Shown piece after piece: positions 2,563 to 57,277 of a stretch of DNA of 64,000 nucleotides. The position numbers and the translations under genes are program-made. Source of the DNA: Gracilaria domingensis. Taxonomy: Eukaryota; Rhodophyta; Florideophyceae; Gracilariales; Gracilariaceae. The stretch is from the NCBI GenBank assembly GCA_022539475.1, contig VCMS01000034.1:186001-250000 (forward strand), given 5' to 3'. Under the pieces are notes generated by a model. The model did no database searches. It had not been told where the DNA came from and saw nothing but the letters and a program-made list of their open reading frames with translations. Every line of letters begins with the position of its first letter. Position 1 is the first letter of the stretch.

Positions 2563-3188
2563 GGTTAGAACACATGACTCTTCGGTGTTGTAAACCTTTT
2601 AGAGATAGTTAAACATAAAAGTTACTTTATCGAAATGACCTGTTTCTATTACATTACTTACATTGTTCGTCCTTCTGTGGTTCAAATATGCCCCTTTAAA
2701 TCCTACATCCCTGATCACTAATACCTGGCTAAGTTTTTGCTAGATGGAAAAGGGTCATTCCACATCATTAAAGTGCACGATACTAGTAACGAAACAAGTA
2801 CAAAATTGTGATATTTCTGAAGAACTAAGCCTTTGCAATACTTGGGTCACCCGTATAAAGTAAGGTAAACATTTTATGGGTTTCAACCCTTAATGGAGGT
2901 TGTTTTACTGATCTTGATTTCTAAGCTCATGTTGAAGATATTCATAGTTTTCTTTACCCACTTGAACCCGTACATATAATTTATGACTAAATCATCCTTT
3001 CTTTACTGGAAATCGATGCAAAAGCTTCTCGTCGTAGTAACGTTTTAAAACAGTGCTACAATACCCGTATATGGTCGTTCTTAGACTATTTTTATGCTAC
3101 GAAACACCTTGTGAACATCAATCACATCCTTCTCATTCGTATACCCACACCCATTTGCAAAACGAACCCTTTCGAAAGCTTTCAAAAC
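2563..3188. other. AT-rich intergenic region
   Basis: No coding frame or repeat recognised. It presumably holds the 3' end of the upstream gene and the promoter of the HAD gene that follows. Confidence 0.4.
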
Positions 3189-4061
3189 ATGTATAACTCA
3201 GAAGTTAAAGCCCAAGAAGTAACTCCTCAGCAGCTGGCTAACGAAATATTCGAAAATGGCTACGCCGTGATTAGTGATATTGACGGTACTCTGAAAAGAG
3301 CTGGGGAGAACATTCCTGCCGAAACAGCCAAATGCATGAAGTACATCAACGCACGCGTTGGTTTCGGAATTGCTACTGGGCGAGATATAGAGGATGCCGA
3401 GAGTTTCATGGAGCACCTGGGTGGCTACACTTTTGGCATCTCTGGAAACCAAGGCGCACGGGTGAGATTATCCAATGGTACCGAAATTGATCAGGACCTT
3501 GACAGGGAAGGCTACGAAAGATGTGCAGCCGAACTTGAGAGACTTGCACTCTCCTTAAATGAATCGCACGGACTTCACGAAGAGCGTCAACAAGCAGTTG
3601 TGAGCACTAGAAAAGACAGTGGACTCCCTAACTTCACGTACAATGGACTGTCGAAGTGGAAAACGGAAGTTAACTCCGGTATTTCAAAAGTGTTGACATC
3701 CTTTCCGAACCTGGTTGCGTACCCTCAAGATGAAAACTGTGACATAGGGGACATTCGTTTCACGAAAAATAGTGGGGCGCTAGCCTTGGTTGAAAACGAC
3801 CCCCAGTTCGACAAACATTTACTCGTTGCTTTCGGGAATACTTCCAATGATGGCCCTCTATATGAAATGGCAACCCTGGCAGTTCATGTGAAGGGAGAAG
3901 ACCATCCAGCAGCGGTAACATATCTTGTTGATGGGGTGGAGGACGTGCATGAGACCATCAGAAGGGTGGCAGAACTGTACGGGTACAGAAAATGCAAATG
4001 TCAATGGTTTAGAAATGCTCTTGGAATTTGTTTCAAGTGCTACGATGCCTTTAATACTTAG
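3189..4061 (+). CDS. HAD-superfamily phosphatase, trehalose-phosphatase-like
   Basis: 290 residues from the ATG at 3189. The frame is open for 26 more codons upstream, but the MYNSEVK start matches the length of its neighbour paralogue better. HAD motif I is VISDIDGTLKRAGENIP, with nucleophile Asp30 and acid/base Asp32. A second conserved region is GFGIATGRD, and the C-terminal acidic motif is FGNTSNDGPLYEM, in the position of the GDxxxDxxM motif of trehalose-6-phosphate phosphatases and sucrose-phosphatase-like HADs. All catalytic elements are present, so it is probably an active phosphatase of unknown (possibly sugar-phosphate) substrate. It is convergent with a diverged paralogue; the two stops are only about 50 bp apart. 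No intron. Confidence 0.65.
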   Translation: MYNSEVKAQEVTPQQLANEIFENGYAVISDIDGTLKRAGENIPAETAKCMKYINARVGFGIATGRDIEDAESFMEHLGGYTFGISGNQGARVRLSNGTEIDQDLDREGYERCAAELERLALSLNESHGLHEERQQAVVSTRKDSGLPNFTYNGLSKWKTEVNSGISKVLTSFPNLVAYPQDENCDIGDIRFTKNSGALALVENDPQFDKHLLVAFGNTSNDGPLYEMATLAVHVKGEDHPAAVTYLVDGVEDVHETIRRVAELYGYRKCKCQWFRNALGICFKCYDAFNT

Positions 4062-4113
4062 CTATGATATGAGATCTCAGTAATAAAAGTGTCGTATATA
4101 TCTCAATACCCTT

Positions 4114-5025
4114 TTATGATTCATGGTGGTTTTTATCGTGCTGCTTTTCCTCGTAGCCGTACAACAGAGCCACCAGCATAATTGTCGAATGTACATCCTC
4201 CACTCTTTCGAACAGGTTGTGTACTCCACCCGGGATACAATCTTCTTTGACGCGAACGCCGTACACGCCTACCTCATGCGAAGGCCCGTCGCTCAAAGCA
4301 CTTCCGAACGTCACGACGTCATCCGTATGAATAAATCTCGGTTCATTATCCACAAGATTTTCTCCTCCGCTTCCTTTTTTGTATCGCTTGTCCACAATTT
4401 CGCAACTTTTATCGCCGGGATAGATAACAAACGCATCCATCTTCTGCAACAGGTCCCCAATAGCAGAATCCACTTCTTCTCTCCACTGCCACAGTTTGTT
4501 GTACACGAAATTGGGAAGGCCACTATCACTTTTGGTCTCCACGAACCCCTTCTCATCATCATTCACAATACCATGCCTCCTATTCAAATCCCTTGCCAGG
4601 AACAGTAGTCCGTCAACAGTGTGGTCAAGGGTGTGATCATTGAATGCAGCCTTAATTTCCCTCTCGTCAGAGAAACGGAGGAAAGCTCCATGATTCGCCG
4701 AGACACCAAACTTATAGTCTCCGAGTTCTTCTATTTTCCCCTCCACGTCGCCCACATCACCCCCTGTGACAACTCCGAAACCAACACGTTCGTCAATGAA
4801 CTTCATACACTTCACAACGTCTTCTGGAATTGACTCTCCTTCTCTTCTCAACGTTCCATCAACGGAACTTAATATACCGTAACCATTGGCATATATGAAC
4901 TTAGACAAGGTATTGGGTGAAATTTCGGCCAAGTCTCTCTGTTCCTCTGCCCTTTTTCCTGATACAGTCACCATACTGCCACAAGTACCGCATAGACAGA
5001 AACTGCATAGACTTCTCAGTTTCAT
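4114..5025 (-). CDS. HAD-like paralogue with degenerate active site (probable pseudoenzyme)
   Basis: 303 residues; a shorter start at Met18 is also possible because the first 17 residues are Cys-rich. It aligns along its length with the HAD protein at 3189-4061 (EDVVKCMKFIDERVGFG, SDSGLPNFVYNKLWQW, VEDVHSTI). Motif I reads GILSSVDGTL: the first Asp, which forms the phospho-enzyme in active HADs, is Ser, while the second Asp remains. GIATGRD has become GVVTGGD. The third motif is FGSALSDGPSHEV. The frame is intact over 300 codons, so it is probably still a protein, but classical HAD phosphatase chemistry is unlikely. A regulatory or binding role is inference only. Confidence 0.6.
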   Translation of the reverse strand: MKLRSLCSFCLCGTCGSMVTVSGKRAEEQRDLAEISPNTLSKFIYANGYGILSSVDGTLRREGESIPEDVVKCMKFIDERVGFGVVTGGDVGDVEGKIEELGDYKFGVSANHGAFLRFSDEREIKAAFNDHTLDHTVDGLLFLARDLNRRHGIVNDDEKGFVETKSDSGLPNFVYNKLWQWREEVDSAIGDLLQKMDAFVIYPGDKSCEIVDKRYKKGSGGENLVDNEPRFIHTDDVVTFGSALSDGPSHEVGVYGVRVKEDCIPGGVHNLFERVEDVHSTIMLVALLYGYEEKQHDKNHHES

Positions 5026-5289
5026 ACTTCTCTTAAAAGCAACCTTAAGTGCAGTTTCAGAAGTGTTAGGACGCTACATGTTCAATTGCGAATTGAATGG
5101 TGCCACCAATGATGTTAACGATACCGAGCATTTGGCATGTTGCAATTAGACGCAACTGGACCAAAGACGTATGACATTTGTTAAATTACCAGCCTGCCGC
5201 ACCTTTTCTATGTTCATATTTATAGCCTTGTAATAGTATACTACTCTTAATACTCGCAAGACACTCATAATTTACTAATCATCTCATTC
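5026..5289. other. Intergenic; expected left boundary of the large element
   Basis: AT-rich and non-coding. It separates the host HAD pair from the left arm of the palindrome-centred element. I looked for a CACTA-type terminal repeat here and saw none by eye. Confidence 0.3.
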
Positions 5290-6594
5290 TCATCCACTTC
5301 GAGGCACTCGCAGCCTCATTATTGGCAAATCGTCATCACTACTACTCTCGAGCACTTCGGTTCTACCGGCGTCCGCTTCCACACCAATCTCCACGACCAC
5401 TTGGTCTTCGTCCATGTCAACCGCCCCACCCTCCTTATCGGACAACAGTTCATCCTCCGCCTCCTCCTCCTCGTCACCGTTGACAAACGTGGGTCGGAAA
5501 TCCCGCACCCGATGAACAGCATCAGGTAGTGCGTAGCCCTCTGGTACCATGTACATGTGGTATCTAACCAGCAAATCCATAGACTCGGGCCTATCCACCT
5601 TGTCCTTCCCACTTGCTCCAGCATGTGTCACATCACCACGGCCCACGAATGCAGAGTACGGTGGGATGATTATCTTCTTCGCTGGATACACCTCCGACAT
5701 CACTCGCAACTGTTGGTTGTTCATCCCCACCAGTTGATGGCTTCCAGCGCTCACCCAGAGAGGAAAGCCCTCTTTCCCAGAGGCCATTACAAAGTATCCG
5801 GGGTTGCCAGTATTCATTGTTTCCTTCGTAACCAGATCACTGAAGTCGGTGTGCAGCGTCTGGCGCTTGCACATTCTCGTCGTCCCCAGAAATCGACCAC
5901 CAGTTTTCGGAGTGTACATCTTCACAGCTTCCCTTTCATTGTCGCATAGTCCCAAAGCCGCAGCAATTGTACCCATTCGAACATCAAGTAAAGCACGCGA
6001 CCTTACAACCCACCTGAGCTCCTCATTATCCTCCGGCTTCTCCACCGTACCCCAACCTGTCGACATCACTTTCCCCTCAAATGGTCCATCGCTACCGTCC
6101 TTCCATCCTTCACCATCGTTGATTATTTGAACAAACGACTTTTGTTCCTCCCCTTTCCGTATATCCGGCATCGCTCCATACTCATTCTCGAAGAAGTCCA
6201 CCAACTTCCCCGACACATCTCCGAACTCCCGAACGTCTTCCAACTCCTCCCATTTAGGGACACCATTATCCGTCGCAAAGCCATCAAGCACGCAATATCC
6301 ATTCTGCCTTAGCTCAGCTTGCATTCGGGCGAAGAACATTTGCCCAAATTCGTCATGCTCCTTCGCAGCAACTCACAGCACCTCTTCATCATCCATACCT
6401 GTCGGTCGAGTACGAGGATACTGCATACCAAATGTCTCCGCCCGTAGGCGATGTTCAGCCCTTGCAGCGTGCCAAAAGACAAGATGGTGTACATCTCTGA
6501 GATTCGAGACACTTAGCAGCTCCGACCTATGTCCCTTCGGCAAGTGAATGACTCTGCGCCGGGGGTCCTTGTGCTCAATTACGTTCTTCCCTTG
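5290..6594 (-). CDS. 2-oxoglutarate/Fe(II)-dependent dioxygenase domain (left arm, 3' part)
   Basis: The uninterrupted part (5290-6339) has 349 residues with the iron facial triad HxD...H: His163 and Asp165 in RQTLHTDFSD, and His239 in GRGDVTHAGA. Arg259 in DLLVRYHMY is placed to bind 2-oxoglutarate. IIPPYSAFVGRGDVTHAGA is a typical last core strand of double-stranded beta-helix oxygenases. The C-terminus is long and acidic. Upstream (6376-6594) the same frame stays coding (LVFWHAARAEHRLRAETF) beyond a TGA at 6373-6375; a 69-nt GT-AG intron (6308-6376, donor GTGAGT) could remove this stop. TET/JBP-type enzymes share the fold, but membership cannot be proved here. It is in frame with the ParB-like domain upstream, so it may be one long protein. 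Confidence 0.6.
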
Positions 6595-7407
6595 TCATTC
6601 CTGCGGTCTCAGCCTGGCATACCCGCACCATGATGGGTTCGGTGGGCCATCATATGGGTCACCTCGAACAAGTCCGTGCTCCTCAGACTCCGGAAGAGCT
6701 GTAGGTAACTCTTCATCAAAGGACCCCCCACCTGTCTCTTGCTGATCGTCTGGCGCAGCATCTTTCTCGACGGTGACAACCCGTGAAACTGTCACAGAAA
6801 GAAGCTCATCGTCATCCACAAATGCAGAACTGCCTGCGTTCTCTGCATTCCCTCCCTCTTCCAATGCCACGAACTGAATCTTCATCGACCTTCCTCTCAG
6901 CACATGTTCATTTAGTTGAGACATCAGGTCATCCGGTGTCATGCTGTTCAGAGTAGATCTCATATGTTGTGTGAAAGTCTTTCTCCGTTTCTTCCTCGGC
7001 GGAGCCCGCTGTTCTTCTTCAGAGCTATTCAGAACTTCTATGGCACCTCGATTTCGGCCGTGCTCAATTTCCCTATAACTCACCTGCGCCCGTTCTCGTG
7101 CACTTCTTCGCGGCTCCCCTTCTTCACTGGCAGATGTTGCAGCAGCAGCAGCGGAAGTCCTCCTCTTCGTCACGGACTGCTTCACTGGTGCGGGGGGCGG
7201 AATTACCTTGAGCATCGTCCGCAATCGATTCTGAACGGAAGTCGTGGCAGTTCTAATTGAGTTCGTCCTGCTCCGAACACGCGGCAATGTGTTGAAGTTC
7301 ACAACTTGTCCCAAAAGGAACTGATACACAGCTGCGTTGTTGTCTGGGTCTTCAACGTCATCTTCATTCGATGGAGCAGACAGACTGATTTCGCGTTTCA
7401 GGAACAC
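6595..7407 (-). CDS. Low-complexity linker between ParB-like and dioxygenase domains
   Basis: 270 codons with no known domain. The stretch is charged and probably disordered, with Ala runs, an Arg/Lys block (APPRKKRRKTFTQHMR) that could be a nuclear localisation signal, and several acidic clusters. It lies in the same frame as the ParB-like domain upstream (TAA at 7408-7410, beside a GTAAGT donor) and the dioxygenase downstream (TGA at 6595-6597). A 69-nt intron 6554-6622 (donor GTATGC, acceptor CGCAG, TAAT branch-like sequence inside) would remove the TGA and join NPSWCG to VIHLPKG in frame. I therefore treat 9206-5290 as one gene with short introns, or as a lightly damaged copy of one. Confidence 0.45.
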   Translation of the reverse strand: MFLKREISLSAPSNEDDVEDPDNNAAVYQFLLGQVVNFNTLPRVRSRTNSIRTATTSVQNRLRTMLKVIPPPAPVKQSVTKRRTSAAAAATSASEEGEPRRSARERAQVSYREIEHGRNRGAIEVLNSSEEEQRAPPRKKRRKTFTQHMRSTLNSMTPDDLMSQLNEHVLRGRSMKIQFVALEEGGNAENAGSSAFVDDDELLSVTVSRVVTVEKDAAPDDQQETGGGSFDEELPTALPESEEHGLVRGDPYDGPPNPSWCGYARLRPQE

Positions 7408-8409
7408 TTACATCGACTCTTCCTCGTTCAGTTCATTCCTCACTACTCGAGCCGCGCGGAACAGAGACACTGCTCTATCATAAAAGAAACCTCGAACCTC
7501 CTCAAAGCTTTTCCATTGCTTTGTCTTCGTCGACTTGCCCTTCAATAGAAACATCTGAAGACTATCAAGAATGAAGGAAAACTCCTCGGCATCCAAAACA
7601 TATAGCGGAGTATGGGACAGATATGTGAGACCTATGTCACTCACAGTCTCACATATATCCTCGAAATGGGCCAGCATTCCCTCACGAGACATGAGTTGCA
7701 GGGCGACATTGGCGTATCTCAGATACTGACGCTCTTGCACAGTCCCAATCAGTTGGCTCTCCTTCAACACTTCTGTCACTTCTGCAGGATCCACGTCTGC
7801 CGGCGTCACCCCCTCAACATCTTCAATTAGAATGGCGACCACACTAATTATAGAGTGTATCTTGTCTGCAAACATCATCCTTCGCATGGTACTCGTCGAC
7901 TCATTGAGGTACGAAGCAACACATAACAATTCCTTCATCCCAATGGGCCTCCCATCTCTTCGTATCAGCAGATTGCAACGCCAAAACTTGGCTAATCGCT
8001 TCCACTTCGGTGCACCAGTCGCTGCCAAATATTGTATAGCTTTCAGACGATGCAAACCATCTACAATGAAGCACTTCTTCGTTAGGCGTCCCTTGTCAGT
8101 ATCCCTCTCTCCCGTAGTAGCATCTTGTAAGGCCGCCACTGGAGAACCCATCGACTGCAATATCCCCCGCTCCTCCATACTCTTCACAAGGGCTTCAACG
8201 TGGCGTTTACTTACTCCACGGAGTAAATTGGGCGGAGTGTCCACCAGAGTGATGTCAACAGTAACAACAACCATCCGGTACTGATTGAGGGTCACCTTTG
8301 GTACCTTCTGACGAATTCGTCTGTACGTCTTGCTCCGAGTAGGTGTCCCTTGTGTTCCAGACCGCTCGCCAGAAACACTTGAACGTGCCATTCTTGCTGA
8401 CAGAAGCAC
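7408..8409 (-). CDS. ParB/sulfiredoxin-fold domain protein (left arm, middle part)
   Basis: 333 codons. The N-terminal third matches the ParB N-terminal nuclease/CTPase-like fold: VSKRHVEALVKSMEERG is the conserved 'vS..hvE.L..SI...G' helix, and CFIVDGLHRLKAIQYL carries the GxHR-type motif of the ParB/Srx superfamily. The remaining two thirds are helical with no recognised domain. In bacteria and phages this fold acts in DNA partitioning or as a nuclease or DNA-modification partner; in a eukaryotic transposon its job is unknown. Upstream the frame shifts near 8430, where GTACCC...GAGCAG could be a very short intron. Downstream it runs in frame into the linker and dioxygenase. Confidence 0.6.
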   Translation of the reverse strand: MLLSARMARSSVSGERSGTQGTPTRSKTYRRIRQKVPKVTLNQYRMVVVTVDITLVDTPPNLLRGVSKRHVEALVKSMEERGILQSMGSPVAALQDATTGERDTDKGRLTKKCFIVDGLHRLKAIQYLAATGAPKWKRLAKFWRCNLLIRRDGRPIGMKELLCVASYLNESTSTMRRMMFADKIHSIISVVAILIEDVEGVTPADVDPAEVTEVLKESQLIGTVQERQYLRYANVALQLMSREGMLAHFEDICETVSDIGLTYLSHTPLYVLDAEEFSFILDSLQMFLLKGKSTKTKQWKSFEEVRGFFYDRAVSLFRAARVVRNELNEEESM

Positions 8410-9206
8410 AACGTCATCGTCCTGCTGCTCCGCAGTTCCGGTGCAGTTTGGGGTACAGATGAACCAGCTCCTTGTGCGGATTGCGCATCCGCGTCTGGAA
8501 GGGGACCTTTTATGATCTCATCTTCCTCCTCTTGCACAGCCGTCCCCTGCTGAACCGTCTGTTTCGACGCAGAAGATCCCATTGTGTCGACGGTCTGATT
8601 CATCGCAGGAGAAGCCCTTTTCGACGCAGTGGGCTTCGCAGCGGAGGTAGACTTTGTTTGACCTGTCCGCTTCGTAGCTGGGGATGCTCTCCTCTCCATA
8701 GACCGCTTCGTAACAGACGACGGACCTGCCCGCGGAGATGCTACTGATGCGCTACCTCTCGGTTGTTGATGAACTCCGAATTGGCTCCGTGCGGCTTGTC
8801 GGCGTCATCACCTCACTCATAGCGCTCACCGTTCCTCGCTTCGACGCCGGAATGCTGGCTGCCACCGGTTCCATCATTTTCTCATCCCAAGGAGCGGCCG
8901 TCCGGAGATCCTGGATGTATTGTGGAAGATCCAGGCCCTCCGCCTGGTAGGGTAGAACGTCTGACCGCTTCGACTGATGAGAATATTATGAACCACCACA
9001 AGACCTGGGTCCAATTGCTTCCCGTGCAACTCGCGGCGTAGAACACTTCCAATTTCATGCAACAACGCTTCCCCGACTATCACCTTTCCTTCATTCTCAA
9101 TATCCATCTGCAGAGAAACCCGCATTCCACCTTGCAATGATCGAGTGCTCCGCCGAGTGCGAGGAGTCACGCTTTGCGTACGCTTTCGAACATGAGTTGG
9201 CTTCAT
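8410..9206 (-). CDS. N-terminal part of the left-arm gene (frame interrupted)
   Basis: The ATG at 9206 lies about 80 bp downstream (minus strand) of a TTTAAA box inside the 88-bp inverted repeat, so it is the natural start. The first frame (9206 to about 8985) encodes a basic N-terminus and GKVIVGEALLHEIGSVL. Coding then moves to a second frame (LPYQAEGLDLPQYIQDL, about 8970-8755) and to a third (Ser/Thr/Ala/Pro/Lys-rich, 8750-8435). Each change could be a short intron or an indel; I cannot choose. No domain is recognised. The low-complexity basic tail is typical of a disordered nuclear linker leading to the ParB-like domain. Confidence 0.4.
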
Positions 9207-9270
9207 GTTGAACAGCTATTGCAGTGAAAGGTGTATATCAACAATACGCTCGCTCTGGACGATACAAGAA

Positions 9271-9358
9271 CGGAGGCGAGCCTTTAAATGGCGACTTACG
9301 CTGGGCACCCCCGCTTTCGGCAGCTCCTCCCAGCGCACTGCCAGTCTCGTCCGTGTCC
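9271..9358 (-). promoter_or_regulatory. Left arm of 88-bp perfect inverted repeat, left-gene promoter
   Basis: This 88-bp block is, by letter-by-letter comparison, the exact reverse complement of 10638-10725. It contains TTTAAA and lies directly upstream of the left-arm start codon at 9206. Confidence 0.7.
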
Positions 9359-9633
9359 TGTCCGTGGCCGCTCGCACGCTGATTGTACGCTTTAGAGTCG
9401 TGGAGTTCGCGCAATGATGACTCACGCCAGCAATGGTCGCGCTCTCTAATCGTGCTCTTCAAATGCTTTGCATAGTAGTCAAGAGTACACTCATTCACTT
9501 TCATATACAGCCTACTCCCGCAAATACACGTGGACAGCGGCGCCAACGTACCGGCGGCCGGGTGTAGCGAAATGACTGCGGGGCGGCGTGTTTTGGGAGG
9601 TCCCGGGAAGGGGCCGGAATGTTGCCAGAACGT

Positions 9634-10413
9634 GCCCGCGGGCGGGGGGGTCGGTCGTGTTAGGGTAGGTACCCTACCACGACCGGACCCCCCCGCCCGC
9701 GGGCATAAAATCGCACATTTTTCAAAAAATCGCCCAAAACGTGCCCGCGGGCGGGGGGGGGGGGGTCGGTCGTGTTATGGTAGGTACCCTAACACGACCG
9801 GACCCCCCCCGCCCGCGGGCATAAAATCGCACATTTTTCAAAAAATCGCCCAAAACGTGCCCGCGGGCGGGGGGGTCCGGTCGTGTTAGGGTAGGTACCC
9901 TAACACGACCGACCGCCCCCCCCCCCCCCCGCCCGCGGGCACGTTTTGGACGATTTTTTGACACCCTCCGGAGACCTCCCAAAACACTCCTCCCGGCACT
10001 TCCTGTACCCACTGCGTCACCTTAGTGCACCATCCCGTCATCTTCACCCTCCAGACACTCCCTAATTTCCGGGATTGTGCACTGAGGTGACCATCCCGTC
10101 TTCTCCACCCTCCAGACACTCCCTAATTTCCGGGATGGTGCACTGAGGTGACGCAGTGGGTACAGGAAGTGCCGGGAGGAGTGTTTTGGGAGGTCTCCGG
10201 AGGGTGTCAAAAAATCGTCCAAAACGTGCCCGCGGGCGGGGGGGTGTCGGTCGTGTTAGGTTACGTACCCTAACACGACCGGACCCCCCCCTCCGCCCGC
10301 GGGCACGTTTTGTGCGATTTTTTGAAAAATGTGCGATTTTATGCCCGCGGGCGGGGGGGTCCTGTCGTGTTAGGGTACCTACCCTAACACTACCGACCCC
10401 CCGCGCCCGCGGG
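9634..10413. repeat. Five GC-rich palindromes arranged as a larger inverted repeat
   Basis: Five near-perfect palindromes of about 70-85 bp lie at roughly 9634-9704, 9743-9820, 9859-9941, 10228-10304 and 10343-10413. Each has outer arms cccgcgggc, a G7-G13/C7-C14 run, then gtcgtgttagggta meeting its complement around a central GGTACC or a variant. They are joined by a conserved AT-rich spacer (taaaatcgcacatttttcaaaaaatcg in either orientation). Three copies lie left and two right of a unique centre, and the flanking 'cctcccaaaacactcctcccggcacttcc' blocks are also inverted. Together they form a 1.5 kb imperfect palindrome between the two divergent arms. Confidence 0.85.
10030..10151 (+). repeat. 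61-bp tandem duplication at the palindrome centre
   Basis: Two adjacent 61-bp units (10030-10090 and 10091-10151) differ at only a few bases. Each ends in a gcac..aggtga stretch. They sit at the symmetry centre, flanked by an inner inverted repeat (about 10000-10036 against 10131-10169, sharing gtacccactgcgtcacct). Confidence 0.75.
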
Positions 10414-10637
10414 CACGTTCTGGCCACATTCCGGCGCCTTCCGGAGACCTCCCAAAACACTCCTCCCGGCACTTCCGGCAGTGATTTCGCTGCACACGCC
10501 GTGAACATATATCAAACTAGAGAAAACTAGCGCTTCACACCCACTTGATCCGCGACTTTTAGCACTATACGGGACCGTTGCAATAGCTCCGAATCGCGAC
10601 TTGGCCGACACGCGACGCTATCGCACCGAGCGGACAC

Positions 10638-10725
10638 GGACACGGACGAGACTGGCAGTGCGCTGGGAGGAGCTGCCGAAAGCGGGGGTGCCCAGCGTAA
10701 GTCGCCATTTAAAGGCTCGCCTCCG
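10638..10725 (+). promoter_or_regulatory. Right arm of 88-bp perfect inverted repeat, right-gene promoter
   Basis: Exact reverse complement of 9271-9358. The TTTAAA (near 10708) sits about 30 bp upstream of the ATG at 10743. Identical core sequence on both sides suggests that the two divergent gene blocks share one control signal. Confidence 0.7.
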
Positions 10726-10742
10726 TTGTTTGCGCTGAAGCG

Positions 10743-13322
10743 ATGGATTCCACCGATGATGGAGAGGAGATACATCCTATCGACATGAGTGCTCCGCCTC
10801 CGGCGTTCCATGCATATGTCAGACTTTTCTTGGTTCTTCGCGATGCTTTGGCAAACAGCGATGGAGGCCCTGATCGGCCACGGTACGTGGGGTTTAGAGG
10901 GTTAATAGAGTTCTGCGCCGAGAATTATAAGGATATTCCGGAGGCAAGGAAGATGTTTGAGGAGGCCACTAACTCCAAGAACCTCCAGAACTTGACACTG
11001 CAACAGCTGCGAAAGAGTGTTGTGAATAACAAACCTGTGGAACAACGATATCTTGTAACGAAGCTTCTTGACAAGAAGGACGGGGATGAGGACCAGAGAC
11101 TGCGCGATTTTTTCCTTCTCTCTATGGATATGGGTATATAGCTACCGGTGCGATGCCTGGTTGGTTATTTCATGACCAGGAGAAAGCAGGTTCTGAAGAC
11201 GACAGTGTTCATCCCACCAACAGCTGTGAACCCATTTGAGGTCGTTATATACTTATCATACCTCGGCCACATAATGGGAGAGAACGACAACATCCGAATG
11301 ATGAAGAAGAAACAACCGAAAAGGAAACGAAAAGTGAACCATGCACCATCTGTGTACATACCCACTTTTACGTCGTTCTCCAAAGACAAATGTGATCGAC
11401 TGGGATTCGCTATCAGTGAGGTCGTATGGGCATGGAGTTGTTTTGCGGCTCATCTTGGATACACGAACGTTCAGCATATGGTTAAACCATACATTTACAT
11501 GAATATGCAGACGTTGAAGTATACGGCGCTAGAGACACGGGAGTCTAGTTATGCCCCATTGAGCCAGAGTACTCGACTCAACACACAGGATGTGCCACAG
11601 AGCAGTACTAGAGGATCAGTGGAGACCTTGAGTGATGAATGCGATACAAACTTCCGAATACTGGCTGAGGAATTTTTGACAGACCTCGAAACCATATGCA
11701 CCCACGATAGCCTCTATAGCTTACGGGCTGATCAGATGAGGAACTGGATAGAGTTTTCGGAGATACGGATGGATACCGTATCTGGTTCTGACTCCGGTGA
11801 GTTGCCTGCTCCATTTCAGAAGTTTTCGGAGTTGCTATGGAAACCGATACAGGATATGCGTCATGCGGCAGGGTTTAATGTGGGCATTCACGCGAAACCT
11901 GATATTGAACTGACGAAAACCCCTAAAACTTCCGGTAATGCCGAACCTTCTTCGACCAAGTCTGCCCCACCCCCACCTCGTCGAGAGTATATGAACCTCG
12001 TGAGCTCCGATAGCGACGACTTCGAGAAGCCGGTGAATCTTGCGGAGCATGAATCTCGGGTTGCCGGTTACAACATCGAAAAGACTGGTATTGAGCCGCC
12101 TATGAAGGGGATATCCAGTCTCCTTCGAATGAATATGGACAAGGTGTGGAAGGGGATGAGAAAGTCACACTTTGTAGCGTACAACTGTGACATGAAGGAC
12201 CTGAGGCACACACACGAAACGTTTGTGAATCAGAGTGAGATTTTATGGGGTGAGGCACAGCTTGTCCTAACAGACCCTCCCTTTAACACTCGAAGGAACA
12301 GAAACAATCGGAATAGTGCTCACGATGTCTTCAGTGAGGATGACATGATCCGTACGGCTGACTTAATAAGTTCCGCGCTTCGGTCAGGTGGGCACTTCAT
12401 TATATTCTGTGCCATGGCACAGTTTCATGTTTGGCACAGGATACTTTCGGAAACGGCGAGTACGAAAGATGAAGCTGGAAGCGAAGGTAAACCAGAACTC
12501 ATGCCTTCGTTTAAAGTGGATGCGAATCCACTGGTGTTCATCCGGGATCGAAGTAATGTTGGAGGGAATCCACGGAAGTTTGGGATACAGCCCGTAACGG
12601 ACTACGCCGTTCATGGGGTGAAGCGTGGATTGCGACCATCGGAGGAAGCCAGTCTTACTCCATTTGAGGAGAACAATTTCATTCCTTCTACTTTCCCGGC
12701 TAACAGGAATGTAATTGACCGGGTGCCAAAACCGAGAGCGGGGGAGTGGTTGACATGGAAGGTACATGAGCCAGGTAGTTCAGTACCAAGTGGGCATTAC
12801 ATAAGACCGGAGCAGAAGTCCAGGGAGTTGATGAAAGAGTTGATATGTCGCTTCACAAGACCGGGTGATCTTGTCATGGACATGTTCGCGGGAACGTTTT
12901 CTACGGGTATGGCGTGCCTATCGCTGACAAAGCATAGGAAGTTCTTGGGGTGCGAGAAGAATAGGCCATGTTTCAGCCATGCGAAGCACCATATAACGAC
13001 TCTTATTGCCGAAGTTATTCGCGGGGGGAAGAATGACATCCTGGTTGAACAGGAGGTGGTGGATGCGGCTTCAACGACTTATGAACGGGTTCCACATCGG
13101 GACCAAGGTCGGCTTGAATGGGAGGCTCCATTTGGTTACCCCCAGTATCAAGTGATGCCTGCACATATTACTCAGTTCCTAGGAAGATACTGGAAGGACT
13201 GGGACTTTGTCGACAAGTGTGGACAGCATACTGTAGATCTTTGGGACCAGCAGTACCGAGGAGCTCTGAATTTAATGGATATGCAAATGCTGTTGACTGT
13301 TGAAGCCAATCGCTATCGCTGA
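10743..13322 (+). CDS. Beta-class DNA amino-methyltransferase (N6-adenine or N4-cytosine)
   Basis: Start ATG at 10743. A TAG at 11139 is best explained by a 90-nt GT-AG intron (11134-11223, acceptor accaacag) that joins SMDM to AVNPFEVV in frame. A mostly unknown N-terminal 450 residues includes a basic KKKQPKRKRK block. The catalytic domain has motif IV first, LVLTDPPFNTRR (about nt 12270), and then the AdoMet site LVMDMFAGTFSTGMACLSL (about nt 12875) followed by FLGCEKN. The order DPPF, recognition region, then FxGxxS defines the beta class of DNA amino-methyltransferases, common in bacteria and phages and rare in eukaryotes. The frame continues past a TGA at 13320 into a SET domain. Confidence 0.7.
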
Positions 13323-13325
13323 CAT

Positions 13326-13880
13326 GTAGCATCTTCTAAGATTCGACATCCCCGTGCTGGTATGGGGGTGTTCACGGAACATAAGATATTGGCTGGGGAA
13401 ACTATCTGTCATTTTTATGGAACTTTGGTATACACGGATCTGACGAACCGGAAGGAAAGACACTTAACGTATGGAAGTGGCTGTCTCGGAGCAACTCCAG
13501 TGCGGTACAAGTTGTTTTCTATGATGGTCACTGTGACTGGTACGGAGTTTCTGCAGCTGAGGAACAGACCAGGACAGGCTCAGGATAGAAAGGAGAGCGA
13601 AGTCTACATTGTCCCGGCGCCTTTTTGTATCGGTGGCTACATTAACGACGCCGGATATCATGCTGGGGATCCCGATTTATCGCAGCCCCGGTCAAACAGG
13701 ACTCGAAGTGCCAATGTGCAGGTGGTGGAAGCCAAGTCGGTGATACAGTTTAAGTCCGACCTTTCTAACTATGCTCTACTTCGTTGTAGAGCAGTAAGAG
13801 ATATTGAGAGGGGCGAAGAGTTGTATTTCAACTACGGAGAGCAGTACGCCTGGGACTGGGCTCTGACATTGGAGCAATAG
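13326..13880 (+). CDS. SET-domain lysine methyltransferase
   Basis: The frame is the same as the methyltransferase just upstream, separated by one TGA. If it starts independently, the first ATG is at 13362, but SET-type sequence (VASSKIRHPRAGMGVF) begins before that ATG, favouring read-through, splicing or a damaged fusion. SET features are GMGVFTEHKILAGETICHFYG, then INDAGYHAGDPDL in the place of the NHxx motif (Asn-Asp instead of Asn-His), and the C-terminal RDIERGEELYFNYGEQY that closes the active site. There is no post-SET Cys cluster. Histone or other protein lysine methylation is the family role; the target is unknown. Confidence 0.6.
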   Translation, partial: VASSKIRHPRAGMGVFTEHKILAGETICHFYGTLVYTDLTNRKERHLTYGSGCLGATPVRYKLFSMMVTVTGTEFLQLRNRPGQAQDRKESEVYIVPAPFCIGGYINDAGYHAGDPDLSQPRSNRTRSANVQVVEAKSVIQFKSDLSNYALLRCRAVRDIERGEELYFNYGEQYAWDWALTLEQ

Positions 13881-14133
13881 ATGAGTTCAGTACCGAATAG
13901 AAAGTAAATATGCTTGTGAATGTTGCAGCTGCCTGCAATACGCGTTGTTGTACATGTACACTGGAGCTCTTCATCTGTAACGGCGATATTTGCGACCCAT
14001 TGGGCACCTCAAATTACTAAAAAGCAGGAACTGCGGAGTCTCCCGGAATATCTGAACCATGCACCCCCTCCCCACCCCTTCCCCGCCCCCCCCCCCAACA
14101 ATTTCGTTTCATTACCCCGTTTATCTCCACAAC

Positions 14134-16529
14134 ATGGGTATAACGCCGAGAGAGCGAAATAGTACGCAGCGCAACAAGAGTAGACCGAAGAAGAGAAGAG
14201 CATTGGATGATACGAATCAGGCTACAAGCACCGCACTTCCTAAACGGAAGTCGTCCTCGACGAGGAAGAGAGTCAGTGGGCGTCCTTCTACAGTATTCTC
14301 TCGCCCATCTCGCACCGGAGCGTCTTCCGGGATTGCGCAAGAATTCTTGGATCAGCGAAAGATGTCGTGCCGTCAACTGCCGATAATGCAAATCGTGCAT
14401 CTGTCTCTGCTCCTCAAGAAGATGAGGTAACTCGGCCCAGCGGGTCAGGACAGGAGGGCATGACAACTGGAACTGAAGAAATTCGTATGACACCAAAACC
14501 TTCATTTCTCCGGCCGATATCGAAGACCGGAGCTACTCGGGCGCGGGTTACGCCGCCCAGTGGATCTGGACAACAAGGGACAATGACGAGAAGTCGTGAG
14601 AGCCCTAGTATATTAAGATCGTCACGTCCATCCCTGTCTTCTAGAACTGGCGTCGCTATGAATCGTGTTATGCCTCGCAATGGGTCCGGACAAGGGAGAA
14701 AGACAATAAGAAATCGAGAGAAAACTGATAGACGAGTTAATCCTCGACCTTCCCCTCTTTCCAGAACGGGGGCCGTTGCAGCTCGTACGAGGCCCAATTC
14801 ATTTGATATACGATGCCATGGAGGAGGACAGACACGAGAGTTGGAGCTCGGAGTCGTGCCAAGGGTGGACACAGAACGCCTGCAGCCTCTCGTGTCTAAG
14901 GGTATGGCACATGAGGAAAGTTCCGATAACGAAATAACACCGAATCCTGTGGCATTACCGGGGCCTGTCGCCAAAGAGGCTAGGTAAATACCGGAAGATA
15001 TCCACACTGGTGTGAAATCAATCTCTTTGAACAGACGTGATCTTTTAAATGAACTGAATTGCTTGAAAGAAAAGGTTAAGACGCTACAAGAGGACTTGAT
15101 GGTTCGGGGTATTCTAGTGAAGGTCGCCCAAGAGCAGAGTACGGCTTTGAAAAAGAGGCTGGAAGAGAAGGATCTAGTCATTGAAGGGCTAAGGGGGGCA
15201 CTGAAACAGGAGGGAGATAGGAGTACACGTGCTGGTGAACCTGGGCAGACAGGTCGAAAGAAGCATAAAATTGAGGTGTGCGACGAGTTTCGAGGGGTTG
15301 CTCGAGCAGTGTATCAGAACATGCTGACGTGGGCAAGGAGAGAAACAAGTGAGCTATGGCTCGAAGGTGAGTCGCTCACCCGAAATTGGGGTAACCGTGC
15401 CGAGAAGGTGGAAGACGCAACTGAGAGTGGGGAAGGGCTTATTGAGCCGGGGGAAGGTGGTTCATACATGGTTCCTAAAAACCCCGTGGAGCTCTTGGGC
15501 AGTTTTGGCATGTTCACACCTTCGGTAGAGGGGGGGCCAGATGCTTTGCTGAAGAAAAGGGTTGAAAGCGAGTTGAAGGAGTTGAGCTGGGAAGGTATTA
15601 GAAAAGCATCTCTTACCGACAGGTGTATACTGGAACTTTGTGCAGATATGTGCCTTAGGCAGAGAATGCGGCAGACCATGAGTGACGTCGTGGGGGTTCG
15701 TAAGGGAAATACGAGGGATAAACTATTTCTGCTCCTGGGGTACGATCTGATTTGGAGAAGAACAAAGCTGGTAGAAGAGAATGCTGACGAACTCACAATG
15801 CAGTTGAAGGAAGCGCAGGAGAACATACTGCGTCTTGACGAAAATGGTGTACCGAACACTTCATGGTGGAGAAAAGCCCCATTTGTTCGTCTAAAGTACT
15901 CCAATGCGGACAATGTCGAGGATATGCCGACGGAAGATCAAGACTTGTTCTTCCGAAACCGTGTCGGGGTACAAGTACTGAAGGAGTTTATTGGATATGA
16001 TGTGGAACACAAGGATACGGGCACCTTTTTAGAAGGCACAATACTGTTGCTCGCACGTTTGGACGCTTGGGTGTTGACGGTTGTGAGCCTTCTAAGTACG
16101 GATGTGTCAAGGGGTGGCCAGAGACAGAAACTGTTTACAAAGAAGTTTGCCGAACTGCTACCTCTGTGTTTAAAGAATGTTCTGGGGGATGTTAGGCAAC
16201 GTGTCTTGAGGACCAATTCCAGCGAGTTTCATAATTTTGGAACGACAACGGAAGATTGGACTAACGTTCTTGGTAATGACATGAGAGAGGCTACATTTGG
16301 ATATCGAATGCCGTCGAACGGAAGACTTTACCTCACTGTGAAAGAACAATTTTCTATTGACAGTGTGAGCCAAAGATTGGGTTCTATTAGCGATTGTTTC
16401 GTTGGTGAATGCGAGGAAGGGGATATGGAGTTCAAGGAAATGGACATGAACGATTTCGGAAGTACCGCAGGATCACAAGAAAAGGCACCACAAGGTGAAC
16501 ATGTAGAGGATGGAGCCCTTAATGTTTAA
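14134..16529 (+). CDS. Right-arm protein with tandem repeats and coiled coil, function unknown
   Basis: Start ATG at 14134. The basic N-terminal part has three to four degenerate repeats of about 36-40 residues with the core 'SRTGA..AR..P..GSGQ.G', with one frame change near 14340. A stop at 14985-14987 lies inside a convincing 51-nt intron, 14984-15034 (AG|GTAAAT ... TTTGAACAG|A), which joins KEAR to RDLLNELNCLKEKVKTL in frame. The second exon (15035-16529) starts with a coiled coil of about 70 residues and continues with about 400 residues of unknown fold ending in an acidic tail. Placed downstream of the methyltransferase and SET genes on the same strand, it may be a structural or targeting component, but that is inference. 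Confidence 0.5.
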
Positions 16530-16591
16530 GTCTGTACAAGTTCAACGTGCTCAGTTGGTCCTTCATCTGAATCATGATAGAATCGATTGAT

Positions 16592-19500
16592 TTAGAATCG
16601 GTGTTGAAACCATTGAAGTGGAGGACAAAAAGGTGGAGCAGGGTAGTTTGATCGAACAACATGGACAGTTCCCTGTAGTGCAGAAGCCGGAACCATCCCG
16701 TACCAAGGAGTTAACTCTACGATAGTCCCCGCTTTGGAATGAGGAGGGAACGGAAGAGTGTGGTTCTTTTCATCGTTTGTAGCCAACCGTAAAGATATGC
16801 ATTTCAATATGTGGTCGATGTTTGTTGCGGGGGGTAAAACCTCGAAATACCGGACGAATGCCACCTCTGGTGCGGTAAGTACAGAATCAAGGAGAGATAT
16901 TCGAATCAGAGCGACTACCTGGGCAACCCAAGTCTCTAAATCTTCTCCGCTTACCAATACAGTGGAAAACTTTGGCTTTCTGCTGGGACCAAATGCTGGA
17001 GAAGCGAAGACTCGTTGGATGATGGGGTATTTGGGTCGTCCCAGCTTAAGTGCCTTAGAAGACGAATCGAAATGTTCAAGAGTCTAAACGAAACCGCCTT
17101 TCAGGAGGGCCGAATTCACCAGAGTTATCCTTTTCTTTTCTGGGAAGTATGTAATAGAGTGCTCATCCAGTGTTTCTTTCTCGAAACTGAGGAAAGGAGG
17201 AAGGGCCTGTTCACCAATTTGGTCAAGTATCGACCTTGTGTCCGTACTTGAGAACATCTCTCTAACAGCAGTCCATGTTTTTGAACTGGACATACTTGAA
17301 ACACAATGTTGAAGAGCTCGTAAAATGAAAGAACGCCCTCTCATTGCAAATCGAGGAAGCTGTGTAGAAGTTCTTGGTAAACCTGGATTACGCTGGTAAG
17401 GAGTATTGCCATTCCATTGCTTTCTAACATGTCCGTGCTCAATGGAGCGAATAGTCTCCTCCACAGCCGTTGCTGTTCTTCTGGACGTCTTTTTGTAGTG
17501 TCTCTTAAGTAGCAGGTGTGCATGTTCGTATATGCCTGCGTCGTAGTACTTGATACTTTCCAGACGGCGAATATCGTCCACGAGATGATCGAGAAGATGA
17601 AACTTCAGAGTTCCCAGTCTGGAGGGATGAAAAGCCGCCAGAGTCTTTGTTGCGGAACGCTTGAAAGCTTCAATCTCCGAACTAAGACGCAGAAGAGAGC
17701 TTTCAGTCCAATGCGGGTCACGATTGTATCTGAATAAGGTCGAAAGCAAGTCCGAGAACTGAGAGAAAACGGTTGTGATTGGGGCAACGTCCTGTTCTCC
17801 ACAGCATATGTCAAAGAATGCTCCTCTGAAGGGGAAGACCATGTCAAGTGCTTTGTAGTTTTTGGCCTCCAGCATTCCACGGAGACCGTCTTTCGTGAAG
17901 ATACCATTCAAAGATTTGCCTTTCTCCTGCGTGGAGAAATCGATATGTAAACCTTTGGCAGGAGAATCGCGTTCTATGGCAGCTAGAATTGCGTTTGCAT
18001 GGTTGAGGAGTTGGGTGCTTATCGTTCGAAATGAACGCGATGCAGATGTTCCTATTGTGGTGCACAGGGTGTCTGACTGCAGTCTCTCGATTGTGGCCGT
18101 TCTTATCAGCTTCGAGATGCAGAGATGCAAGTTGTGTAATGGTTCGAATGAGAACAGACTGTATGGAGACAATCCCGGGATCATTCCAAGGCTTACGGAA
18201 GTTTCGAGGAACGAAGAAATGAGAGATATGGAATTTGAACGCATCAGAGTATCCGCTTGAGGTCTTCTCTCCCTCGCACGACGTGGACGTCTTTCCGCCT
18301 CGTCTTTTTGTGCATGTTGCAAGATAGCTGTGTATGTCTTTTGGGTGCTTTTCGTGTGCTTTTGAGAACGTCCGTTGAATGAGGTGGGAATAGGACTGCA
18401 TAAAGATGAGCGAGGGGCTTTGCATCTATGACACGGGCTTTACGTTTTGGTCCCATGAAGAATGGACAGAATGTCCTTAGCCTCAGAAATATCCGCACAA
18501 TAACTTGCAAGCAGAGCATGGCACACTCGACTTAGTTTGTCTTCGCCGATGAACTGAAAACCTTTCTGCGTGAGATTTAGAATGGGCTCCAGGACTTGAC
18601 GAAGAGATTCTTGAAGGATTTGCATCCTGGACTCGCGTAGACACTTGCTAGAAACAAATGGCATTGCGTCTGCTTTAGATGCGGAAACCTCGATCAGTGT
18701 GGTAGGGAAGTATGCCACTACTGTGAGGTCATCACGGATACACTTACGGCGAAGCTCGTCGGAGAAGTTGAGAAATATGAGGTGAAGAGGATAGGCCGTA
18801 ACCGATGTTTGCTTTAGAGTTGTTGAAGACTTATCGGTGTATACCTGCAGAAGACCTACGAAAGATTCACTGTAACTTATTTCTTGGGAGTACCACACTA
18901 TTCTACTATCCAAAGAGCTCATGACCATTTGCTTAAGTTTTGAGGTGGCGTCTCTTGCGAGAGAGCCGGACATGGGGTGAGATATTTTCGTGGAGTGGGT
19001 CTGAGGTATAGGGTGGAAGAATGTGTTTTCGTTGTTATCCAACTGGAGCTGTTTCACAAGTGTCTGAACGGGGTCTCTCGTGTAGAGGGTGGCGCTGAAC
19101 TTACATCCCTCTGGCGAGACAGTTCTTCGATTGAAACCGTCCTTTGAGGCGTATCGTTCGAAAATGGCGTTCTTCAGTTCTGTACAGCGCTTGGAACTTG
19201 TTATGGTCTCGTTGAATCGCTTTTGCGCGAATCGCGGGTCCCGAAGTAGCCCAATTAGCTCGTCCGCCTCACGATGACCAAGGTTGAAAGCTACTGAAGC
19301 CAGACAAACCGTGAGATAATCCATATGCAAATCACCGAGGGCCTCCTCAGAAGGCAGTGGGCGGGAACTGCTTCCGTGTTCTCGCTCTAATGACGCGGGA
19401 CCCGGGGAAGAAAAAACAAAATGCGAAGAGTCCGGAATGAGAGGGGCGCACGGAGTGTGATCAACGATGTCCTCGGACACCGGAGGCTCGGGAAGGCGAC

Positions 19501-19705
19501 AAGGGGCAGTGACCGTTTGGGAAGATGCGGGCGCGGGCGCGGAAAGCTTGAGACGCTTGCTTCTCCGAATGGGCCGGCTATGGTCGTCTTCCAGCGCTGC
19601 TTTCAGACGAAACGGGCAATGGTTGACATGCTGTTGAAGAGATAAGACTCCTCGGCGAGTAACGAAGGGGCACCCACGCTTCTTATGTGTACAGTAGTAG
19701 ACCAT
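16592..19705 (-). pseudogene. CACTA/Plavaka-like DDE transposase with two in-frame stops
   Basis: One frame runs from the ATG at 19705 to 16592. It has an N-terminal C2H2-type finger (MVYYCTHKKRGCPF ... HVNHCPF), an RNase-H-like core with LLQVYTDKSST (first acidic residue), HLIFLNFSDELRRK and VVAYFPTTLIEV, a Cys pair SPCHRCKAP, then SPYSLFSFEPLHNLHL and LKFHLLDHLVDDIRRLES ... YDAGIYEHAHLLLK, and a C-terminal VRYFEVL/WYGMVPASALQGTVHVV module. This order fits Plavaka and related CACTA-type transposases as I know them. TAA at 18440 falls just before the Cys pair and TAG at 17084 just after GGFV; both could derive from CAA/CAG codons. It is convergent with the right-arm gene, 62 bp away. Confidence 0.7.
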
Positions 19706-20069
19706 GGGAAGAAGAAATGAACGAGAAACGACGACAAAGACTGCAAGGGAAGGGCGTCCGAAGGGAGAAGGAGGTCGAGCGACAGTCAATATCGACGTGT
19801 TGCTCAGAACGGAGAACATATTTTGAGTTTAAATCACGTGCTTTCGTTCAAAAAGGAACGTAGGTACACGTCGACCTCAACACAAGGGTGTACTTCTCGT
19901 ATTATCTACCACTGGTTATAAACCTCTGGTTTCCTAACGTTGTACGCTGTACACTTGTCCAATCTCGCACAAAAAAATAAATCTCTTCCCTCCGCCGCCG
20001 CCCCCGCCCGTCCGACGTCCGATCTTTTGTTACCGTCGTGATCTGTGCCATCCTCGCGTTCTACTCCGC
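19706..20069. other. Upstream region of the transposase, no gene seen
   Basis: Non-coding by eye, with a GC-rich pyrimidine stretch near 19985-20010. It probably contains the transposase promoter and the right end of the element; I could not identify a terminal repeat. Confidence 0.35.
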
Positions 20070-20140
20070 TCCGTCGTACGTTTTTCCGCCCTTGCACTCG
20101 CTACGAAGTGCGAGGGCGGAAAAAAGTACGACGGATTACG
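20070..20140. repeat. Fold-back inverted repeat
   Basis: About 30-bp arms (ccgtcgtacgtttttccgcc...gcactcg and its complement) separated by only a few bases form a long hairpin with a few mismatches. It resembles a fold-back or MITE-like end. Confidence 0.7.
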
Positions 20141-20396
20141 AAGTAGCGTGCTGAGAATAGATTCCATTAAGCGGACATGAAGCGTACCTTATTCTCTTTC
20201 TCCGCCCTCGTCGGACGCCTCCATAAAGCGGACAGCATCCGTATCTCACGGATGTATTCCGTGCAGTCTTTCCGTGCAGTCTTTTCGTACGTGCTTCCAT
20301 TTCCTTCTACGTATCTTTGTTCTAAACTAACCAATCCTCACCACGTCTCTTCGCGCTCTGCGACATGTAAACGGCAGGAAAAAGGCTTTGGGTTAC

Positions 20397-20537
20397 TTTT
20401 GCGAGTTACTAGGTCCCTCGACTTTTCTAGCGCAACGTTTCTGTTTTGCTCTTATCAATGGTACGTTCTATCGCATTTCAACTGTATCCAACGGAGCATT
20501 GACTAACTTATGGATACTTTCTGCTTGCGTATACAGG
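20397..20537 (+). repeat. 140-bp direct repeat, copy 1
   Basis: Nearly identical to 20779-20918 (about five differences), from ttttgcg.gttactaggtccctcga to cttgcgtatacagg. Confidence 0.85.
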
Positions 20538-20778
20538 AAAACGACCAATTTCATTTCGTTGAGAGGCTCTCAAGATCGATCTCTGGCTGTTCGGGATAGG
20601 CGATTCTGGTACTTGGTTGCGACATAGGCTGCTCTCTCGTTTATCGCATCTTGCGGTATGTTTGCTGCATGGGCATTCTTCGTGTCGTTGCTTGTGAGTT
20701 CTCGCTTCGGGACCTTTCGCGTTTTACGATGAATGGATTGCTGGTAATCTAACCGATCCCTTTCCTTCCTCTTCTTCC

Positions 20779-20918
20779 TTTTGCGGGTTACTAGGTCCCT
20801 CGAATTTTCTAGCGCAACGTTTCTGTTTTGCTCTATCAATGGTACGTTCCATCGCATTTCAAATGTATCCAACGGAGCATTGACTAACTTATGGATACTT
20901 TCTGCTTGCGTATACAGG
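20779..20918 (+). repeat. 140-bp direct repeat, copy 2
   Basis: Second copy of 20397-20537, about 240 bp apart from the first. No coding content. Such spacing could be solo-end duplication or a small tandem-repeat element. Confidence 0.85.
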
Positions 20919-20954
20919 TAATTGACTTTTGATGCGTACGTAGCTCACGAGATG

Positions 20955-21125
20955 CAGGTGCAGGTCCCTCAAGTAGGGAACCATGCATCTGGGCATGGTT
21001 CCCTACATGTGGAACGGAGAGGATGAGGCGCTTCGGGCCTCATCCTCTCGGAGTGCGTATTTGCTCTACCGATACCGCACTTTGGTGCAGGTGCCCTCTG
21101 CGGCATCTGCCGCAGATTGCGCCTA
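20955..21125. repeat. Cluster of short perfect hairpins
   Basis: Consecutive stem-loops: tagggaaccatgc/gcatggttcccta (about 20980-21005), gaggatgaggc/gcctcatcctc (about 21022-21050), and tctgcggca/tgccgcaga (about 21097-21117). The stems are perfect and the loops 1-7 bases. Confidence 0.7.
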
Positions 21126-21579
21126 CACCCGCTTCATCATGGGGAAATGGTACATGTAATATAGCGAGGTAGTGGTTAGCAAAAGCCGTCTATAGAAGAA
21201 TAAATACGAATAAAACGGTATGATTTCATAATGGACATCATCTGTACTAGCAACAGTATTCCATGCGTTGCAGGGTATCATTCCGCAGAAGGTATCGTGT
21301 AATGTGCACCTTAATGGAAATTGAACCTAGACTTCGCGAAATACCGTTCAGGTAGCCCTCGACTAAAGAACTAGCACGAGTGGAAAACCCACCAGTATTT
21401 ACTGCACAGCGATTCTGGACGACCCAAGCAATTATCTTCAAATTTTGAAATAATTGATCTCGATATTTTTTCAAAAAATTTACTGGACGACCGTTGCCAC
21501 TTTCTGGACGACCCTCGCCAAAAACTAGCATCTGCAAGAGACAGACGTAGAACACCCTCAAAGCTCTTTTTGTACTTTC

Positions 21580-36254: not shown

Positions 36255-36410
36255 TTTTTCATTTCGTAAACTCCTGGAACGCCCCTAAATGCGTTACGCC
36301 GGAAGGCGGAGGATCCTCTGAAATTTGTTACATAAAAGTAGAGGTTCTCAGGCATTTATCGTACGTTCCTCACAGGGCGTAGTTTCTCCCAAGGCCGTCA
36401 CGAACAAAAT
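36255..36410 (-). repeat. MULE terminal inverted repeat, right copy
   Basis: Inverted imperfect match to 22185-22300 (ggatcctctgaaatttgt, gtacgttcctcac) and, further in, to 28515-28560. It ends the transposon territory just before the SETD3-like host gene. Confidence 0.6.

Positions 36411-57237: not shown

Positions 57238-57277
<40 letters not shown>

Follow-up and report, generated by a model that had tools for sequence, protein, structure and literature searches.

A 22.6-kb Plavaka-like transposon of Gracilaria domingensis carrying a DNA methyltransferase-SET fusion and a ParB-like/putative dioxygenase fusion

A 64,000-nucleotide stretch of the genome of the red alga Gracilaria domingensis (C34:186001-250000, hereafter the window) contains a copy of a repeated element that is almost certainly a mobile Plavaka element. 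The ends of the element were mapped, a transposase was found between them, and one insertion proved precise, with a 2-bp duplication. Its two arms each carry a fused gene, one joining a DNA amino-methyltransferase (MTase) to a SET domain and the other joining a ParB-like protein to a putative Fe(II)/2-oxoglutarate (2OG) dioxygenase; both fusions are read as single frames in other copies and have relatives in other sources. The preferred explanation is a Plavaka-group (CACTA-like) DNA transposon of giant size, which moves by cut and paste as a single 22.6-kb unit and is equipped with its own chromatin toolkit. Taken whole, toolkit included, this explanation is given a probability of roughly 0.55.

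Coordinates refer to the window unless a contig (C) is named; labels beginning with L denote fetched genome copies, and those beginning with P denote annotated proteins. Genome scans covered the assembly of 77,892,253 bases in 680 contigs, one of which (C680) carries phycobilisome genes, and all genome-wide match counts and linkage lists are lower bounds, every count being read as "at least". An earlier note on this DNA had proposed a large transposon with a DNA- and chromatin-modification cassette at 5290-19705. The proposal holds, given ten copies with both ends and one clean insertion with empty sites, but the extent does not: flanks were fetched for ten MTase copies (20 stretches, three of them shortened by contig ends), and in these the window DNA recurs at 92-98% identity far past both of those coordinates. 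The repeat unit begins outside the window, 1,097 bases to the left of its first base, at C34:184904, and its right end lies at C34:207547. The left end, which was mapped after adding the 10 kb preceding the window, was placed where three fetched copies cease matching at one identical base, and the right end was placed likewise from several copies. Outside the mapped ends, the sequences vary from copy to copy. The left terminus reads CGTCTGTGTTCTGCAAAGTG and the right one, reversed, CGTCTGTCTCTTGCAGATGC, with CGTCTG..CAGACG as the element termini.

Both ends were found in ten copies; these are copies whose ends were predictable from gene positions, and predicted sites without a visible end were excluded from the ten. 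Seven of the ten measure 22.0-23.5 kb, and the nine besides the window copy have lengths of 22,815, 18,824, 22,883, 10,811, 10,667, 22,031, 22,371, 23,447 and 22,678 bases. A host gene cluster is ruled out, as the region recurs many times with identical ends. A 2-bp direct repeat flanks four of the ten end pairs (C9, C155, C158 and C187; permutation mean 1.4, p 0.026). Of the registers scanned in the ten pairs, which included longer target duplications and alternative end positions, only the 2-bp one reached 4/10. The joined flanks of the C158 copy match 17 genomic places across the junction, and all ten of those fetched are gap-free, and thus empty sites. The 2-bp duplication and these empty sites show the precise insertion of at least one 10.7-kb derivative bounded by the ends of the element. 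For the remaining nine joined flanks, no junction-spanning match was present among the best 40 of 580 candidates.

The transposase is interrupted in the window copy. In L024, however, it forms a frame of 1100 amino acids from stop to stop (1059 from the ATG), with a PF18759 match at E 7.1e-17, over the cut-off. The earlier description of a CACTA/Plavaka-like transposase by the right arm is upheld by the same family in the window (Table 1). That it belongs to the same element had been offered as an inference. Starting at the MTase, passing the transposase and continuing in the direction of the right end, L016, L024 and L028 (over 10 kb), L022 (9.2 kb) and L026 (8.9 kb) are collinear with the window; these collinear copies, the C158 insertion and the ten copies with both ends rule out an unrelated neighbour. 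The element is Plavaka-like by its transposase. It is not a member of PlavakaA or PlavakaB, because its termini match neither of the fungal pairs (TGT..ACA and CATCA..TGATG).

Genome-wide, scored matches numbered at least 64 for the MTase, 92 for the transposase, 111 for the ParB part, 84 for the coiled-coil protein and 40 for each end. The expected spacing and strand were seen between MTase and ParB in at least 27 of 62 matches, MTase and coiled-coil in 18 of 62, coiled-coil and transposase in 20 of 84, and ParB and transposase in 12 of 111, against a chance expectation of about 0.2 for each of the three gene pairs for which it was computed. The lists were ranked by different genes, and the linkage figures are thus minimum values. 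The genes thus recur together, at the spacing and in the orientation predicted from the element, much more often than chance allows, contrary to the refuting case named in the earlier note, in which cassette and transposase would never travel together. Truncated copies are common.

Table 1. Features of the element within the window
Feature	Position	Strand	Evidence or remark
Element part inside window	1..21547	.	total length 22,644 bases
Cargo frame, 415 amino acids stop to stop	1315..2562	+	GxGxxG-like motif; recurs in L013, L017, L021
HAD hydrolase cargo, Hydrolase_3 (PF08282)	2991..4061	+	E 4.3e-13
Second HAD hydrolase cargo	4114..5073	-	E 5.6e-4, slightly below cut-off; copy L013 E 4.4e-5, above cut-off
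Putative Fe(II)/2OG dioxygenase half of left-arm fusion	5290..6372	-	motifs only
ParB-like half and linker of left-arm fusion, interrupted in window copy	6595..8804	-	phrog_3264 E 4.7e-4
GC-rich palindromic core separating the divergent fusion genes	9266..10730	.	arms 93, 114, 119 nt, 96-99% complementary
Five palindromes GGTCGTGTTAGGGTA-NN-TACCCTAACACGACC	9653..10394	.	starts 9653, 9768, 9879, 10249, 10363
DNA amino-methyltransferase-SET fusion gene	10743..13880	+	window-copy stops at 11139-11141 and 13320-13322
N6_N4_Mtase domain (PF01555)	12258..12971	+	E 2.1e-15; residues 373-610 of frame 11142-13319
SET domain (PF00856)	13359..13838	+	E 7e-9; residues 13-172 of frame 13323-13877
Coiled-coil protein, interrupted in window copy	14056..16529	+	867-amino-acid frame in L016; no family
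Plavaka transposase, interrupted in window copy	16592..19828	-	PF18759 E 1.5e-13 in frame 18443-19828
Right terminal inverted repeat	21528..21547	-	opens CGTCTGT; 13/20 first bases agree with left end

The MTase, SET and transposase assignments are solid as sequence-based predictions. The SET match scores 36.5 bits against a curated cut-off of 22.4, and the beta class proposed earlier for the MTase is supported by a DPPF motif that precedes an FAGT motif. In the PDB, the MTase profile matches DpnA, CcrM, MboIIA and RsrI, all of which are presumably beta-class enzymes. The protein probably acts on DNA. MTase and SET domain were read as separate genes in the earlier note, as were the two parts of the left arm, but in other copies each pair forms one fused protein. 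For the right arm, a single frame spans both domains in L002 (1055 amino acids), L008 (1050) and L007 (989); L004-L006 are reversed and were left out of this single-frame reading, and L003 has lost the SET domain. Additionally, a 912-amino-acid frame is open from the position equivalent to window 11142 in L010, L014, L016, L018 and L022. The fusion also occurs in five proteins from other sources (P0001, P0002, P0003, P0004 and P0005), which are 26-42% identical, keep the catalytic motifs and all exceed both Pfam cut-offs. Within the same genome, a second family at L177:142-3201 (minus strand; C12:73700-76900) combines the two domains at 33% identity, its SET match likewise exceeding the curated cut-off. 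Therefore, several MTase-SET families coexist in the genome. On one contig, C382, three further N6_N4_Mtase matches lie in frames of about 1170 amino acids, near positions 10484, 36683 and 110684.

In the left arm, the ParB-like and dioxygenase-like parts share one frame in L114 (at least 1236 amino acids, as its 5' end is open) and in L025 (1070). P0008, a 1102-amino-acid protein from another source, matches this arrangement of the two parts and has a basic linker. Three G. domingensis proteins, P0006, P0007 and P0009, are 94, 89 and 96% identical to the left-arm protein, and in their annotated form P0006 and P0007 are missing most of the dioxygenase part; their NCBI names (mediator subunit 15-like and cell-wall-anchored SasA, respectively) look spurious. 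For the ParB fold suggested earlier, support is weak: ParB-like PHROGs are the best matches of this part (phrog_3264, E 4.7e-4 to 2.6e-3); no Pfam family matched it, and P0008 matched none of the ParB PHROGs. The dioxygenase named in the same suggestion is confirmed by no library, since no credible match was found in the Pfam, NCBIfam, PHROG or PDB collections. Its candidate motif, H-x-D...H...R, is common to distant relatives, and H-T-D-F, RGDVTHAG and LVRYHMY are shared with P0008; the H is lost in P0011 and the R in P0009. PDB searches with both parts returned nothing meaningful.

Pattern scans of viral and prokaryotic sequences for relatives of the ParB and dioxygenase parts gave 21, 20 and 69 candidate stretches, and no relative was confirmed among them. 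These scans bear on whether the element could be an integrated virus or be derived from one, as its size, gene cargo and phage-like DNA methyltransferase domain might suggest. In viral contigs, neither part had a relative, and for the MTase-SET protein only methyltransferase-domain relatives occurred among the matches listed. Moreover, the scanned element frames include no capsid, packaging or polymerase domain, and a Plavaka transposase, short inverted repeats and a 2-bp duplication are present. A viral origin, which is highly improbable, was rejected on these grounds.

Between the two fusion genes lies the palindromic core that had been described as flanked by divergent arms, and the complementarity of its arms (Table 1) bears out that description. 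With up to two mismatches allowed, the core palindrome has at least 1,344 genome matches, and a reversed control has none. Eleven cores that were examined held 33 palindromes (mean 3.0), and the genome would thus hold about 450 cores if the palindrome is restricted to them. The palindrome contains TTAGGG/CCCTAA, resembling telomere repeats. Rfam gave no match within the window.

In the proposed mechanism, this palindrome array would act as a two-way control region. The ParB-like protein would bind the array or the element DNA, bringing the putative dioxygenase there, and the MTase-SET protein would write two marks in one step, amino-methyl on the DNA of the element and lysine-methyl on the nucleosomes. 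Judging by N6A relatives, N6-methyladenine (6mA) is a likelier mark than N4-methylcytosine (4mC). With their genes diverging from a single core, the writer and the candidate eraser would then set the chromatin state of the element, and thereby its expression or transposition. That the enzymes mark the element itself, rather than serving host-wide marking or defence, is suggested tentatively and at somewhat less than even odds. It is doubtful that the element and its sister families are the sole source of the DNA-methyl mark of this genome, in a host without C5 methylation, with one protein that marks DNA and histone together and a ParB-guided dioxygenase that removes N-methyl marks, so that the writer and the eraser of the mark would sit on one transposon. 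If the proposed mechanism is true, transposon-controlled chromatin becomes directly testable.

The same marks could instead be repressive, laid by the element on itself as a means of self-silencing or copy control, by analogy with the bdelloid 4mC methyltransferase and SETDB1, which serve host silencing. Among PDB SET enzymes, EZH2 chains are nearest to the SET profile (E 4e-7), but the match spans 88 positions and says little about the substrate. A loop between the bdelloid N4CMT-chromodomain protein and SETDB1, described in the excerpts of PMC8885841, provides a published parallel. However, the large number and youthful appearance of the copies speak against strong self-restraint, and this alternative is possible but distinctly less than probable.

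The background of DNA methylation in the host bears on a further alternative. No match to C5 methyltransferase (PF00145) was found in the assembly, whereas 10 of 14 control genomes were positive. Similarly, Tet_JBP (PF12851) had no match in the element proteins or in the assembly, with a weak control (one control genome positive, none over the cut-off). N6_N4_Mtase (PF01555), by contrast, exceeded the cut-off in all of the best 150 of 328 candidates, which were scored. These host searches were single-frame and single-exon and covered one assembly; a split gene could be missed. Because neither C5 methyltransferase nor Tet_JBP is matched in the assembly, a role for the dioxygenase as a 5-methylcytosine eraser is unlikely. 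An anti-silencing function, in which a classic TET/JBP-like eraser of 5-methylcytosine and an active histone mark would work together against the host, has precedent in the TET/JBP genes carried by fungal Plavaka, KDZ and other transposons (excerpts of PMC12730594). Within the limits of the searches just described, the missing matches speak against it, as does the lack of TET/JBP similarity in the dioxygenase, and it is very unlikely. TET/JBP identity itself was rejected for want of any match in the element proteins or the assembly, and the link to TET/JBP enzymes drawn in the earlier note falls with it. In an assembly without a C5 methyltransferase match, an MTase-SET protein predicts 6mA or 4mC tied to element copies.

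Several points weigh against the preferred explanation of a single mobile unit with a chromatin toolkit. Among the matches listed, MTase and transposase lie at the expected spacing in only at least 4 of 62. The 2-bp repeat is absent from six of the ten end pairs, the window copy included, which may reflect recombination between copies, and the empty-site case is a 10.7-kb derivative rather than a full-length copy. The window copy is also damaged, with stops in MTase-SET and interrupted ParB, coiled-coil and transposase frames, and it may be rearranged, because an open frame covers its left flank and another adjoins its right flank. An N-D motif occurs in the SET domain of all seven aligned sequences, where active SET enzymes usually have N-H. 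The ParB assignment is weak, and the Fe(II)/2OG dioxygenase identity is putative, resting on motifs.

Selection on the genes was compared as mean ratios of nonsynonymous to synonymous substitution (dN/dS). MTase-SET had the lowest value of eight gene segments, 0.37 (11 copies, eight of them stop-free), although most of the copies were chosen among those ranked highest in MTase similarity, a bias that pushes this value down and likewise counts against the preferred explanation. The other means were 0.58 for ParB (8 copies), 0.60 for the transposase (7), 0.66 for the coiled-coil protein (8), 0.67 for the dioxygenase (5), 0.81 for the Rossmann-like cargo (4), and 0.87 (5) and 0.82 (6) for the HAD genes. 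The fusions could be dead or passenger cargo, captured and copied along while doing nothing for the transposon. In favour of this, many copies carry stops, with just 29 of the 64 MTase matches listed being free of them, and the HAD and Rossmann-like values are 0.81-0.87. In contrast, in this biased sample, MTase-SET and ParB are at or below the transposase, and the fusions are retained in distant relatives. Passenger status is considered improbable.

The abstract of a 2025 study by Petroll et al. on Bostrychia moritziana reportedly refers to giant Plavaka transposons as forming one lineage. As cited in PMC12477816, that study describes red algal giant transposons with accessory genes, and the present element has the red algal host, the giant size and the accessory genes in common with them; its account of the Bostrychia elements may already cover part of this gene set. 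Excerpts of PMC12477816 also describe Sola1-1_Ec32 of Ectocarpus, a 21.5-kb transposon with a 1104-amino-acid protein that joins a ParB-like part to an N4C/N6A DNA methyltransferase. Here, in contrast, one gene fuses ParB to the putative dioxygenase and a second, divergent gene fuses the methyltransferase to SET, and the transposase is Plavaka rather than Sola. Both kinds of finding, accessory genes on giant transposons of red algae and transposon proteins that join ParB to a methyltransferase, are thus already cited in print, and the combination is less unprecedented than the earlier note took it to be. In a literature search that compared systems other than the Bostrychia gene content, no MTase-SET fusion of a transposon and no eukaryotic ParB-dioxygenase fusion was found.

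Fungal Plavaka elements with TET/JBP genes likewise combine a Plavaka transposase with a captured dioxygenase gene (here a putative one), and their target duplications are 2 bp for PlavakaA and 2-3 bp for PlavakaB (excerpts of PMC12730594). Their termini are TGT or CATCA, whereas those of the present element are CGTCTG; Tet_JBP similarity is absent here, and the same excerpts report no MTase or SET gene there. Giant Plavaka repeats of Amoebidium form clusters of up to 50 kb that are flanked by a Plavaka transposase and have red algal matches, but these are tandem clusters with tyrosine recombinases (excerpts of PMC11244446), and no such recombinase turned up in the frames scanned for the present element. 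HarbingerS and MuDR transposons of Phytophthora also carry a SET histone methyltransferase, as cited in PMC12730594, but they belong to other superfamilies, and their SET is not described in those excerpts as a DNA-methyltransferase fusion. Finally, the N4CMT of bdelloid rotifers is, similarly, a eukaryotic N6_N4_MTase fused to a chromatin domain; according to the excerpts of PMC8885841, it is a host gene with a histone reader (chromodomain), in contrast to a transposon gene with a writer (SET). As a protein family shared among diverged sources, MTase-SET offers a way to study the entry of bacterial-type DNA methyltransferases into eukaryotic chromatin. For a large and abundant element of a red alga, the ends, the mode of insertion and the fused genes are now defined.

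The left arm additionally carries two divergent HAD hydrolase genes (2991-5073) and the cargo frame beside them, which had no Pfam family at E below 0.01 and may be reductase-like. Beyond the right end, the element is adjoined by a MULE transposase frame (PF10551, E 5.4e-11) at 24029-26257. An inverted repeat of 81% identity over 91 bases (22205-22295 and 36308-36398, 14 kb apart) may mark the ends of another element. Next to the C465 copy, a frame at L010:7079-10000 (minus strand) is taken to be a retrotransposon-like integrase with a chromodomain-like end. Farther along the window, positions 54001-58000 have a GC content of 67-80% and contain long runs of CG and CCG, within a surrounding region of 42-53% GC.

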